A stretch of 64,000 nt of DNA from Pseudaquidulcibacter saccharophilus (GTDB taxonomy: Bacteria > Pseudomonadota > Alphaproteobacteria > Caulobacterales > Aquidulcibacteraceae). Position 1 is the first letter of the stretch. The number at the start of each line of letters is the position of its first letter. Of this stretch, positions 25,543-29,958 are shown in pieces. The position numbers and the translations under genes were made by a program. The notes below the pieces were generated by a model. The model saw nothing but the letters and a program-made list of their open reading frames with translations. It did no database searches and was not told the origin of the DNA. The stretch covers positions 372,001 through 436,000 of the forward strand of contig NZ_JAHWUS010000003.1 of the NCBI RefSeq assembly GCF_019455445.1, written 5' to 3'.

Positions 25543-26409
25543 ATGTCTTTTGGCATGTTTGAAGATAAAAAAATAACTGCCGCCAATTGGTTTGCTGCCC
25601 TTCGTGACGATATCTGCACACGCTTTGAAGAGCTAGAAGATATTGCCACACCAGAGCTTTATGGGCATGGGGCAGGGCGGTTCACAAGAAGCCCTTGGAA
25701 AAGACCTCAAGGCGGCGGGGGTGTAATGTCGATGATGCACGGGCGTCTTTTCGAAAAGATCGGTGTGCATATATCAGTCGTAGAAGGGGAGTTTTCGCCC
25801 GATTTTGCAAAAACCATGAAGGGGGCGGATGTTGACCCACGCTTTTGGGCGGCGGGAATTTCATTAATCGCGCATATGCGTAACCCACGGGTTCCGGCGG
25901 TGCATATGAATACCCGTATGATTATGACAAGGGATTGGTGGTTTGGCGGTGGTGCCGATTTAACCCCAACGCTTGATTTTCAACGTAGGCAAGATTTCCC
26001 CGATGCAATTGCTTTTCACGCGGGAATGAAATCTGCGTGTGACCTGCATGGCGATAATTACGATAAATATAAAAAATGGTGCGATGAATATTTCTTTTTG
26101 CCCCATCGTAATGAGCCGCGTGGTATTGGCGGTATTTTTTATGATCACCATAATAGTGGCGATTGGCAAAAGGATTTTGAATTTACCAAGGATGTCGGAA
26201 AAAACTTCCTTGAAACCTATGCCAATATTGTTGAAACCCGCATGAATGAAGAGTGGACCGATGCCGAACGGCACGAGCAATTGGTTCGTCGTGGTCGTTA
26301 TGTTGAATTTAATTTGCTTTATGACCGTGGAACAATGTTTGGACTTAAAACTGGTGGCAATGTTGAAAGCATCCTTTCATCCATGCCGCCAGAAGTTAAA
26401 TGGCCCTAA
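25543..26409 (+). CDS. hemF: Oxygen-dependent coproporphyrinogen III oxidase
   Basis: HemF decarboxylates two propionates of coproporphyrinogen III to form protoporphyrinogen IX, using O2. The 288-residue product shows the family markers [57 protein letters not shown] and, near the end, [22 protein letters not shown] split over two blocks. The ATG has no good SD nearby, and an 18-codon out-of-frame ORF begins at 25506 and overlaps the start. A TATAAT lies at 25492-25497. No anaerobic hemN is in the window. Confidence 0.96.
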
Positions 26410-26411
26410 TT

Positions 26412-28175
26412 TTATTTTACGCGGTAAATAACCAAATCCGACCCAGAATTATCAGGAACTTTTTCAAGATAATTTGGTGCTTTGCCATATAAAACATGGG
26501 CCATAAAGCTATTGGGTGAATATTCGGCAATGCGGCGTAATTCCATAGCACTTCCGCAATAAACGAGATAATTTATCCCGCGTTGTTTAATAAGGTTTTG
26601 CGCGGTTTCATCATCGCTAAGATAGATATTAAATAAATAATCGCGCCCCATATCGCGGTGGAATGGCGTTGTAATCACGTCATGGTGGGTATTTATCAAA
26701 ACATATGAACCAATGGCAATATTATTGGCAACCAAACCTTTGGGAAGGCTATTTAATGTGGCGTAGTTGGGTTTTGAATAACATTTACTACCGCCAAATG
26801 CCGCCACTTTGAAAACCGGAATAGATGAATGAAAAGGAACGTGCATCTCTCGCGCCAAATTCAATGCCCATTCGGGCACAAAGGGGTTAACAATGACGCA
26901 TAACAATATTGCAGATTTTTTGGGAAGCCTATCCACGGCCTCCGACAAAATTGCGATGCTTATTATAGTTGCAAGACCTGCCGCCTGTAAATTAACACGG
27001 GCTTGGAACCAGAATGTCATCACAACACAGACCAAGAGCATTACGATAAGTAACAAAAAATTATAAAATTTCGTATCAGTATTTTTTGCCAAATGTGCCG
27101 CCTTGAAGGCGCCGGCAATTAGAACCAAAACCGAAAAGCCGCCCAAAATAATTTGTTTATTGATGCCCATTTTTAAAAGTGGGAAAGTTTCACCAATATC
27201 AATAAACCAATATTTATAAAGGGTTGGGCTTACTTGCCAATAAAGCGGTTTAAGAAGGATTGGGAATTGGGTGGCAATACCAATTACCGGCAAGGCAATA
27301 ATAAAAAGTGCAACAAGGCGAATTTTTATTGTGCGTTGTGCCGCAACCCTTGCCACAATCGCCAATAATAATGCGCCAATTGCAATCGGTGCAGCTTGGG
27401 CAATACTTAGGCGTTCATTGGCGGATTGATAGATTTCATATGGCGCAACATTTATAAGCAATCCAACAATGATTGATATAAAAAGTGAAACCCCGAAATA
27501 TTGGGTGGAAACCGCACGCTCTTTGCTATTTAATGCCCACATTAATACAAGCCATAAAACGCCTATTATTTCTAATAACAGCATTTCAAGCCCGATGGTA
27601 AGGCTTGCGGCAAGGGCAATGCCCGCAATTATCCCGCCTTTTTTATCATTAGACGTGATGCCATATAAAAATAATGCAAAGCTAATTAATTGTAGGCCGT
27701 GGTGATCGACACGCCCGGGGGCAAAATTAACACCCAAGGCCCGAAAAAATACAACAACAAACAATGCAATCAATAGATTGTATCGCCCATTATAAAGGGG
27801 CTTTGATGCAAGATACGCACAATAGGTAAAAACCAACCCCAATAATAATGGTGTGAAAAATACCCCGATAATTTCGGCTTGTTGCGCGCCAAAAAATGGC
27901 CGCAATATCAATTCTACTAATGCCAGTGGGGCATCAGAAAGCCTTGACCAATGTAACTCACCGCCAAATGGTGGATTTGAACGATGAAGCATGCGGTCAT
28001 AAAACCCTTGCCCATCAAGCCACGCCCGAACTTCGAGTGTGCGGGTTATGTCATCACTATCGGTAAGTTGCCAATTTAAAATTCGCGCCCATTGTGGTGA
28101 AAGGGCATAAAAGCCATACCAAATCCCAAAAATCACCAATAAAGCCAAAAGGGCGGGGCGCGCATATTTTACCAT
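26412..28175 (-). CDS. Multi-spanning membrane protein, probable GT-C-type glycosyltransferase (paralogue 1)
   Basis: The 587-residue protein has many hydrophobic helices (about 11-13) and a soluble C-terminal part. After the first helix comes LTDSDDITRTLEVRAWLDG with an Asp-rich motif, then RSNPPFGGELHWSRLSDAP; a second acidic loop is FAPGRVDHHGLQLI. An acidic motif in the first outer loop plus many helices is the build of GT-C enzymes such as STT3/PglB and PMT. The loop DVITTPFHRDMGRD near the C-terminus is shared with the downstream paralogue. It would use a lipid-linked sugar, which is inference. It is convergent with hemF, 2 bp apart. Confidence 0.7.
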   Translation of the reverse strand: MVKYARPALLALLVIFGIWYGFYALSPQWARILNWQLTDSDDITRTLEVRAWLDGQGFYDRMLHRSNPPFGGELHWSRLSDAPLALVELILRPFFGAQQAEIIGVFFTPLLLGLVFTYCAYLASKPLYNGRYNLLIALFVVVFFRALGVNFAPGRVDHHGLQLISFALFLYGITSNDKKGGIIAGIALAASLTIGLEMLLLEIIGVLWLVLMWALNSKERAVSTQYFGVSLFISIIVGLLINVAPYEIYQSANERLSIAQAAPIAIGALLLAIVARVAAQRTIKIRLVALFIIALPVIGIATQFPILLKPLYWQVSPTLYKYWFIDIGETFPLLKMGINKQIILGGFSVLVLIAGAFKAAHLAKNTDTKFYNFLLLIVMLLVCVVMTFWFQARVNLQAAGLATIISIAILSEAVDRLPKKSAILLCVIVNPFVPEWALNLAREMHVPFHSSIPVFKVAAFGGSKCYSKPNYATLNSLPKGLVANNIAIGSYVLINTHHDVITTPFHRDMGRDYLFNIYLSDDETAQNLIKQRGINYLVYCGSAMELRRIAEYSPNSFMAHVLYGKAPNYLEKVPDNSGSDLVIYRVK

Positions 28176-28215
28176 TCCCCACCTTTAGCATAGGGGAAGC
28201 ATTATTCAAGCGAAG

Positions 28216-29958
28216 TTATTTTTTTACCACAAACACATAAATATCTGAATTTGCTGGCTTGGGAACAGGTGTAAGATATGACGGAACATGACCAGTGCTT
28301 ATTTGTGCCAGAAATGAATTGGGATAATATTTTTGAAAATTTGGCACTTCGGTATGGTAATTACAAAATGCAATATAATCGACCTTATCAGTCTTTAACA
28401 ACTCACCGGCTTTTTCAGGGGTGCTAAGGAAGATACGGTATAATTCATTGCGACCAGTGTCACGGTGAAAATGTGTCGCCATAACATCGTGATGGGTTGA
28501 TAATAATGTTTCAACCCCAAGGCTTATGTCGGTTGCCACCAAACCTTTTTTCAATTTTGCCAGATGCGCAAAATCAGGGGCCGCACGGCAATTTGCACTA
28601 TCACCATATTTGTATTTTGCAGGTGTTTTAGGAACAAATGTATCAACCACCCAAACATGGAATGGCGTGGCGGTTGGGCCAAGAACGATTCCGGCCAAAA
28701 GCGCCCATATAATTCCGCGCTGGTTTAAAATTTTGCCTACAAAAGGTGTGAAGACAATTATCGCAATTGCAAAGGCGTGAACCATAACCCGCATTTGGAA
28801 AAAATATGTCATTGCAGTTAGGCAAATTAATATTAGCGATAAAAGCGTCCAATTTTCGAAATTATTTTTGGATTTAAATGCCAGATAGGTTTGCCAAATT
28901 CCAACGATATTTGACACAAGTAAAAAGCCAAGCACCGCAAATTGCAATGATAAAGGGAAGTTCTTTAAGGGAAAGGTTTCGCCCACATCGCCAAACCAAA
29001 GTTTTACAAACAACGGCGAAATTTGCCAATAAAGCGGCTTTCGCAAAATTGGAAATTGCAAGGCAACCAATATCACCAAAAGACCAACCAAAACCATGGC
29101 AATAAAGCGGATAATTAGGCTTTTTTGGCTTGTGAAATTGACTGCTATAAACAAGCCAAATGTGCCGGCCAAAATTGGCATAACTTGGGCAATGCTTAGG
29201 CTGTCATTATATTGTGTAAGAATTTTTGACGGTGCAATATCAATTAATAAACCGGCAATTATCCCTATGAATAAAGCAATACAAAACCCTTTCACTAGTT
29301 TTGCGCAATCGGGATTGATTAGCCATCTTATACCTAACCAAGCAACAATCAAAAACTCAATTGGTAAAAGCTCAAAACCAATTGTTAGGCTTGCCGCAAG
29401 CGCAACCCCCGCCACCAAGCCACCCTTGAAATCATTTTTAAATGCCCCAAGAATGATTGTTATTAAGGCAATACTTTGTAAATTGTGATGATCAACACGC
29501 CCAACGCCAAAATTAAAAATCAGCATTGAGCAATTCAGGAACAAAATAGTCACAATTAAAATTGAGTATTTGGACCAATAAAGCGTATCGGCAACTTTGG
29601 CGGCGATATATAAAAAAATCGCGCCCAATAATGGCGGTAACAAAAATACGGCAATTTTTTCAGTTAATGGTAGCGGAAAAAATGGACGTAATATGACTTC
29701 GATTAATGCCAGTGGCGCATCCGACAGGCGTGACCAATGCATTTCGCTGCCCCATGGTGGGTTGGCACGGTGATTTAAAAAATCATAAAAACCTTGCCCG
29801 CCAAGCCATGAGCGAACCTCGAGGACACGCATTGCGTCATCACTGTCGCTAAGCTTCCAATTATTGATATTGGCCCATGCATCGAAATAACCATAAGTAA
29901 AAAGCACGATTAAAAAGAAACACAATGTTAGTGTTGTTATTAGCTTCTTATTGGTCAT
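28216..29958 (-). CDS. Multi-spanning membrane protein, probable GT-C-type glycosyltransferase (paralogue 2)
   Basis: The 580-residue paralogue of the next gene has the same plan: N-terminal helix, LSDSDDAMRVLEVRSWLGG, RANPPWGSEMHWSRLSDAP, then FGVGRVDHHNLQSI and a C-terminal DVMATHFHRDTGRNELYRIF. The two are aligned over nearly full length with conserved acidic loops and His pairs, so they arose by duplication and both are kept. The gap between them is 40 bp. The SDD and RVDHH motifs are the best candidates for the active site. The acceptor, such as LPS, a capsule or a protein, is not evident from the context. Confidence 0.7.
   Translation of the reverse strand: MTNKKLITTLTLCFFLIVLFTYGYFDAWANINNWKLSDSDDAMRVLEVRSWLGGQGFYDFLNHRANPPWGSEMHWSRLSDAPLALIEVILRPFFPLPLTEKIAVFLLPPLLGAIFLYIAAKVADTLYWSKYSILIVTILFLNCSMLIFNFGVGRVDHHNLQSIALITIILGAFKNDFKGGLVAGVALAASLTIGFELLPIEFLIVAWLGIRWLINPDCAKLVKGFCIALFIGIIAGLLIDIAPSKILTQYNDSLSIAQVMPILAGTFGLFIAVNFTSQKSLIIRFIAMVLVGLLVILVALQFPILRKPLYWQISPLFVKLWFGDVGETFPLKNFPLSLQFAVLGFLLVSNIVGIWQTYLAFKSKNNFENWTLLSLILICLTAMTYFFQMRVMVHAFAIAIIVFTPFVGKILNQRGIIWALLAGIVLGPTATPFHVWVVDTFVPKTPAKYKYGDSANCRAAPDFAHLAKLKKGLVATDISLGVETLLSTHHDVMATHFHRDTGRNELYRIFLSTPEKAGELLKTDKVDYIAFCNYHTEVPNFQKYYPNSFLAQISTGHVPSYLTPVPKPANSDIYVFVVKK

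Follow-up and report, generated by a model that had tools for sequence, protein, structure and literature searches.

Two tandem GT-C proteins of the STT3/AglB fold in Pseudaquidulcibacter saccharophilus and their possible place in a GtrA/GtrB-type system

A 64,000-nucleotide stretch of the genome of the alphaproteobacterium Pseudaquidulcibacter saccharophilus (contig NZ_JAHWUS010000003.1; here called the window) carries two neighbouring genes for multi-spanning membrane proteins, copy 2 upstream and copy 1 downstream, which raise the question of what such a pair might transfer, from which carrier and to which acceptor. A first-pass annotation, made from the DNA letters, had recognised two tandem, motif-sharing open reading frames (ORFs), which are indeed present and encode 587 and 580 residues, and had proposed a GT-C glycosyltransferase layout. 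That fold is borne out by two confident AlphaFold models and their comparison with the PDB, from which both copies are predicted to be inner-membrane GT-C glycosyltransferases with a 13-helix fold of the STT3/AglB type, that of the catalytic subunit which glycosylates proteins in eukaryotes and archaea; their active site and a small C-terminal domain are placed in the periplasm. The gene neighbourhoods of their relatives make it reasonably probable that both proteins serve as the third, GT-C member of a GtrA/GtrB-type system and transfer one sugar from a polyprenyl-phosphate carrier to a periplasmic acceptor.

The common strand of the two genes and the short gap between them (Table 1) make an operon probable. 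Aligned over 580 positions, the two proteins share 42% of their residues (E 3e-149). The motifs HWSRLSDAP, GRVDHH and HRD-x-GR are common to both, as the first-pass annotation had it, whereas SDSDD, given there as a further shared motif, is exact only in the 580-residue copy and reads TDSDD in copy 1.

Table 1. Positions of the gene pair and of its principal motifs in the window; counts are of 42 aligned sequences
Feature	Position	Strand	Basis
Copy 2, upstream gene, STT3/AglB-fold GT-C protein, 580 aa	28216..29958	(-)	ORF list; AlphaFold; VIA
Copy 1, downstream gene, paralogue of copy 2, 587 aa	26412..28175	(-)	ORF list; AlphaFold; VIA
Gap between copy 2 and copy 1, 40 bp	28176..28215	(-)	ORF coordinates
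Copy 2, predicted C-terminal periplasmic domain, residues 442-580	28219..28635	(-)	Model; A1 profile matches 3vgp, 3vu0
Copy 2, D38-S-D40-D41, EL1 acidic motif at the OST first-DXD position	29836..29847	(-)	D38, D40, D41 in 42/42
Copy 2, H74-W-S-R-L-S-D80, first external loop	29719..29739	(-)	H74, W75, R77, D80 in 42/42
Copy 2, R154-V-D156-H157-H158, second external loop	29485..29499	(-)	D156 in 41/42, H158 in 42/42
Copy 2, W321...E327, fifth external loop	28978..28998	(-)	W in 42/42, E327 in 40/42
Copy 2, R390, sixth external loop	28789..28791	(-)	42/42
Copy 2, residues 477-481 DISLG, at the WWDYG place	28516..28530	(-)	Profile alignment to 3vgp
Copy 1, D39-S-D41-D42, acidic motif	28050..28061	(-)	Column mapping
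Copy 1, R155-V-D157-H158-H159	27699..27713	(-)	Column mapping
Copy 1, E329, fifth external loop	27189..27191	(-)	Column mapping
Copy 1, R393, sixth external loop	26997..26999	(-)	Column mapping

Fold and catalytic layout

Copy 2 was modelled with a predicted local distance difference test score (pLDDT) of 93.6 and a predicted template modelling score (pTM) of 0.93 from a 42-row alignment, and copy 1 with 89.8 and 0.90 from 25 rows, one stretch of the latter (445-462) being loose. A Foldseek search with copy 2 placed yeast and human STT3 at the top (E 4.3e-10 to 8.1e-10, yeast at 4.3e-10), followed by AglB (5.6e-9), CeDPY19 (1.4e-8), PglB (2.9e-6) and ArnT (0.049). In VIA comparisons copy 2 matched AglB 3waj with Z 27.6 (3.5 Å, 507 aligned), yeast STT3 with 26.0, PglB with 20.6, DPY19 with 20.4 (CeDPY19, 4.5 Å over 536) and ArnT with 19.8 (4.7 Å over 437). 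The corresponding values for copy 1 were 25.5 for 3waj (3.7 Å, 505 aligned), 23.7, 18.1, 17.3 and 18.2. The comparison with PglB and ArnT that the first-pass annotation had recommended matches both, below STT3 and AglB for either copy.

The annotation had also expected the conserved acidic and histidine residues to lie on one face of the membrane, and in the modelled topology, which alternates and was read from the predicted helices, they do so: among the 24 polar positions that 38 or more of the 42 sequences conserve, 20 fall in periplasmic loops, three at periplasmic helix ends and one at a cytoplasmic helix end, giving 23 on the periplasmic side. Lysine plus arginine amounts to 1.6-2.6 per cytoplasmic loop (0.95 for the N-terminus), against 0-1.05 for the short periplasmic loops.

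Equivalence to the active site of the oligosaccharyltransferases (OSTs) was assigned by the order of the external loops (ELs). The catalytic residues of PglB, as given in the relevant part of PMC6801728, are D56 (EL1), R147, D154 and D156 (EL2), E319 (EL5) and R375 (EL6), with a histidine in AglB in place of D156. The motifs named in the corresponding part of PMC8342417 are DXD in EL1 and EL2 and TIXE in EL5, the sequon Ser/Thr being bound by WWDYG with DK/MI. Judged from the sequence, D156-x-H158 of copy 2 appears to correspond to the archaeal (AglB) form of the second DXD motif, E327 to the TIXE/SVSE glutamate and R390 to PglB R375. In EL5 the form T[IV]xE is kept in 3/42 sequences and W-x3-[IV]-x-E in 38/42.

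Two profiles of the family were used, A1, built from 27 diverse members, and A4, built from 42 sequences and centred on the window. Neither WWDYG nor DGGK occurs in any sequence of A4 (0/42 each) or A1 (0/27 each), and the place of WWDYG holds x-[IV]-D-x-G in most members. The OST-type residues of EL1, EL2, EL5 and EL6 are thus kept while WWDYG is absent, so that the catalytic layout resembles that of an OST but the acceptor-recognition motif is gone. The earlier statement that the motifs differ from those of STT3 holds for the missing sequon motif, but not for the catalytic layout, which corresponds to that of STT3, AglB and PglB.

Searches with sequence models gave a sparser picture. A Pfam scan of copy 1 and copy 2 found no family at a meaningful score, and neither the Pfam STT3 model (PF02516) nor the PMT-type models matched either copy down to E 5; PF02516 also found nothing in the window genome, while four archaeal controls were positive. 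Among the 27 diverse members the most-matched Pfam family was the AglB core, PF22627 (three members, best E 0.004), and the NCBIfam archaeal STT3 model (archaeo_STT3) gave weak matches in 16 (best E 1.2e-9), copy 1 scoring 14 bits against a cut-off of 450 bits. A search of the PDB with single sequences gave no credible match; with profile A1 it gave the C-terminal domains of Archaeoglobus AglB-S (3vgp, E 2.7e-8; 3vu0, E 1.8e-6), the WWDYG segment of AglB lying opposite LTDINLG of the family consensus. The LA_3751/LA_3752 family, which 4/27 members match, was looked for in the literature without result.

Comparison with GT66 (AglB, STT3 and PglB) thus shows a common 13-helix GT-C module with a periplasmic C-terminal domain, the latter similar in sequence to that of AglB-S, together with an acidic EL1, an EL5 glutamate, an EL6 arginine and, as in AglB, D-x-H in EL2. 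In contrast, the family lacks WWDYG and DGGK, rarely keeps T[IV]xE, fails to match PF02516 and, at about 580 residues, is shorter than the matched OST chains; its relatives also lie in a context of lipid-phosphate monosaccharide machinery. The DPY19 C-mannosyltransferases share the STT3-like 13-helix fold and use a lipid-phosphate monosaccharide (Dol-P-Man) as donor, but they are eukaryotic, are structurally less similar and have different EL motifs. ArnT, the lipid A aminoarabinose transferase, is a bacterial GT-C enzyme with an undecaprenyl-phosphate donor, but shares only 8% identity with the family and has the weaker Foldseek score given above, and the PMT-type models do not recognise the family.

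As a separate observation, C457 and C532 in the C-terminal domain of copy 2 are conserved in 42/42 and 41/42 sequences and may form a periplasmic disulfide.

Neighbours of the relatives and the sugar donor

Across species genomes, 313 stretches were confirmed to carry the family, mostly from Sphingomonas and its relatives. Neighbourhood counts refer to the best 80 of these, 65 of which extend 5 kb or more to either side; local profiles were built from the neighbour clusters of the same 80 loci, and misses were counted. GtrA lies within 1.5 kb of the family gene in 54 loci and within 5 kb in 58, and a glycosyltransferase family 2 (GT2, GtrB-type) gene within 5 kb in 34. Both are present in 31 loci, GtrA without GT2 within the same 5 kb in 27, and a methyltransferase in 40. 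The cluster representatives belong by Pfam to PF04138 (GtrA) and PF00535 (GT2). The closest match of the GT2 representative is sll0501 (5ekp, E 1.3e-76), which we take to be GtrB, and the next are undecaprenyl-phosphate formamidoarabinose transferases and dolichol-phosphate mannose synthase. In an independent class-wide draw of genomes, GtrA was found within 3 kb in 6/35 family-bearing genomes, with 0.11 expected from uniform placement.

Individual loci show the same association. In Phycosocius and Aquidulcibacter GtrA is the direct divergent neighbour of the family gene, and at two further loci (L160, L164) gtrA, an FAD oxidoreductase gene and the family gene are co-directional, the oxidoreductase of L164 resembling UDP-galactopyranose mutase (UGM; E 7.2e-20). 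A Sphingomonas parapaucimobilis plasmid carries a methyltransferase gene and GtrA, then the family gene in divergent orientation. On a plasmid of Novosphingobium sp. MBES04 an FAD oxidoreductase gene and GtrA precede the family gene, whose product is a hypothetical protein with 26% identity to copy 2, and these are followed on the opposite strand by genes for a 615-residue GtrA-domain protein, a methyltransferase and a glycosyltransferase.

GtrB is described, in the part of PMC4728340 that bears on it, as a polyisoprenyl-phosphate glycosyltransferase. In the three-component systems outlined in PMC11127046, undecaprenyl-phosphate glucose is the product of GtrB; GtrA is proposed to flip it, and the last step, the transfer itself, falls to a GT-C enzyme. 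Since the relatives adjoin genes for the synthesis and flipping of single lipid-linked sugars, the enzymes probably decorate the cell surface, one sugar each time, and membership of a three-component GtrA/GtrB system is likely for these relatives. The first-pass annotation had called the donor unknown, which is true of the window alone, but the neighbourhoods of the relatives point to a polyprenyl-phosphate sugar. This assignment of donor class would be strongest for the sphingomonads and the Phycosocius group and weaker for the window organism. The family resembles known GtrA/GtrB/Gtr systems in that GtrA and GtrB-type genes adjoin many of its members and in that their third component is also a GT-C protein; it differs in the STT3/AglB-like character of that component, in the addition of methyltransferase genes and, at some loci, of UGM-like oxidoreductase genes, and in the window locus, which has neither GtrA nor GtrB.

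In such a system a GtrB-like enzyme would make the polyprenyl-phosphate sugar in the cytoplasm, the GtrA protein would flip it across the membrane and the family GT-C enzyme would pass this one sugar on to an acceptor in the periplasm. If the site works as in AglB, a divalent metal may be bound by the EL1 aspartates together with D156 and H158, whilst E327 may position the acceptor and R390 bind the carrier phosphate. In the window genome the candidate GtrA and GtrB genes lie apart from the pair. With WWDYG lost, an Asn-X-Ser/Thr sequon is probably not what the enzymes recognise, and the acceptor may instead be an envelope glycan, a glycolipid or another protein site.

The close match to STT3 and AglB, the best of the structural comparisons, and the retention of the EL1, EL2, EL5 and EL6 catalytic residues would also be expected of a true OST, one that moves a preassembled oligosaccharide en bloc from lipid-pyrophosphate to protein and reads a degenerate or new acceptor signal. 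This seems unlikely, given the complete absence of WWDYG and DGGK from the 42 sequences, the silence of PF02516 in a genome search that recovered its four archaeal controls, and relatives whose neighbours are genes for monosaccharide lipids. The pair was not classed with the OSTs because WWDYG and PF02516 were both looked for and neither was found. A transporter, or an inactive relative without enzymatic function, is very improbable. It would agree with the public product name of one Sphingomonas record, AcrB/AcrD/AcrF family protein, but no RND Pfam model matches either the window copies or the record so named (L173:6902-8671, Sphingomonas parapaucimobilis), on which the name is a probable misannotation; the GT-C fold, the presence of catalytic-type residues among the most conserved positions and the purifying selection described below also speak against it.

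Assignment of the window pair itself to a GtrA/GtrB-type system has a number of points against it. GtrA is near none of the eight loci of the window's genus group (L064-L071) and was undetected in 10/35 family-bearing genomes. The window genome has a single GtrA, and its GtrB-like protein is distant (27%, E 3.4e-15); both are unlinked to the pair. Related sphingomonads contribute most of the GtrA counts, and the loci are not independent. In the active site, no counterpart of PglB R147 turned up in the family at the spacing seen in PglB, R154 being conserved two residues ahead of D156 as against seven for PglB R147, and a positional equivalent of the DK/MI motif was not established in the family. 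Profile A4 matches 3vgp at E 0.11 only, its PDB search giving AglB C-terminal domains at E 0.11 and 1.5 alongside chance matches to glucose transporters, so that kinship to AglB at the sequence level is carried by the broad alignment behind A1, together with the structures.

The absence of GtrA near the eight loci of the genus group, and the failure to detect it in ten of the family-bearing genomes, would suit a monosaccharide-type GT-C enzyme with a different partner. The GtrA and GtrB of sphingomonads would then serve another transferase or a 536-residue membrane protein of no recognised family, which is encoded in the cluster at 16/80 loci, and the family itself would use some other flippase and donor. 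We regard this as rather improbable, since GtrA is found within 5 kb in those 27 loci that have no GT2 nearby, directly adjoins the family gene in Phycosocius and Aquidulcibacter, and is co-directional with it and with the UGM-like protein gene in L160 and L164. The preferred assignment remains a GtrA/GtrB-type transferase of single sugars. Its evolutionary extension, a widespread bacterial family of the STT3/AglB line that lost sequon recognition and was recruited as a GtrA/GtrB transferase, with an OST-type site now using single lipid-phosphate sugars, is plausible but tentative.

In Table 1 of PMC10920833, GT66 is the sole GT-CA family listed with a lipid-pyrophosphate oligosaccharide donor. 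If this evolutionary extension is true, the present proteins would found a new GT-C family bridging GT66 and the GT-C enzymes that use monosaccharides. A common bacterial relative of STT3 and AglB that has the catalytic residues without the sequon motif and adjoins genes for monosaccharide lipids would make a switch of donor type testable in cultivable sphingomonads. No description of the family was found in the open-licence PMC literature; since the family has no Pfam model and one public record names it as an efflux-pump protein, many alphaproteobacterial genomes may hold a step of envelope glycosylation that goes unnoticed.

Several genes met in these surveys are recorded here in their own right. 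The 536-residue membrane protein (L119:6072-7682 and 15 further loci) has no Pfam match, shares the GtrA/GtrB/methyltransferase cluster and is possibly another GT-C enzyme. The 615-residue Novosphingobium protein (L174:6282-8129) has a GtrA domain at 7-121, and the roughly 490 residues after it match no Pfam family; a GtrA/GT-C fusion was considered and rejected, as profile comparison finds it unrelated to the family. Glycosylation clusters around the two window-genome candidates were likewise rejected: the GtrA gene (L144:9209-9619) sits between peroxiredoxin-like and ABC-transporter-like ORFs, named by eye, and the GtrB-like gene (L172:8004-8750) between those for a 140-residue membrane protein and a 114-residue ORF. 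The 140-residue protein, which follows this DPM1/GtrB-like gene in the stretch L172:7499-8750, is by eye not GtrA-like.

Paralogues, selection and distribution

The window genome holds three paralogues rather than two, the third (G000:C4:542795-544471) having 39% identity. The nearest named record is that of Hyphomonadaceae bacterium UBA1933, where the two genes occupy the corresponding site (L147) and copy 2 is 90% identical. Ratios of non-synonymous to synonymous substitution (dN/dS) between the window genome and UBA1933 are 0.086 for copy 1, 0.080 for copy 2 and 0.057 for the third paralogue. Purifying selection acts on all three, and the values for the tandem pair against this sister genome indicate that the pair is not a product of chance. 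In a tree of 24 rows each window copy groups with its UBA1933 counterpart (support 100/100 each); these four fall inside an eight-row clade (100/99), within which the branching order of copy 1 and copy 2 has only moderate support (83-92), and the third paralogue lies outside. The first-pass annotation had read the two diverged copies as a sign of two substrates; acceptor or linkage would probably distinguish the tandem pair and the third paralogue from one another.

With copy 1 as query, matches were found in 35/289 genomes of the window's class, and with copy 2 in 19/61 relatives. Profile A1 at E <= 1e-10 detected the family in 43/299 Pseudomonadota genomes, 39 of the window's class and four of other classes. 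Tandem family genes occur in 5/35 family-bearing genomes (G000, G010, G021, G251 and G281, the last four checked as ORFs), so the arrangement recurs in the family.

At the window locus, the scanned flanking genes include, by Pfam, no sugar or lipid-carrier gene, in agreement with the first-pass annotation. A coproporphyrinogen oxidase gene (25543-26409, plus strand) is convergent with copy 1 and ends 2 bp from it; the others scanned encode QueF, a GNAT acetyltransferase, an amino-acid permease, a cytochrome b and a 241-residue ORF without a Pfam family. In the stretch L145:8224-10970 the third paralogue shares 4 bp with a WD40-repeat-like gene downstream of it, and such a partner follows the family gene at 12/80 loci by clustering and at 10 by profile, the profile count having dropped overlapping starts. 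Convergent to this pair is a gene for a DegT/DnrJ/EryC1 sugar aminotransferase (L145:10962-12143; PF01041, E 9.5e-98).

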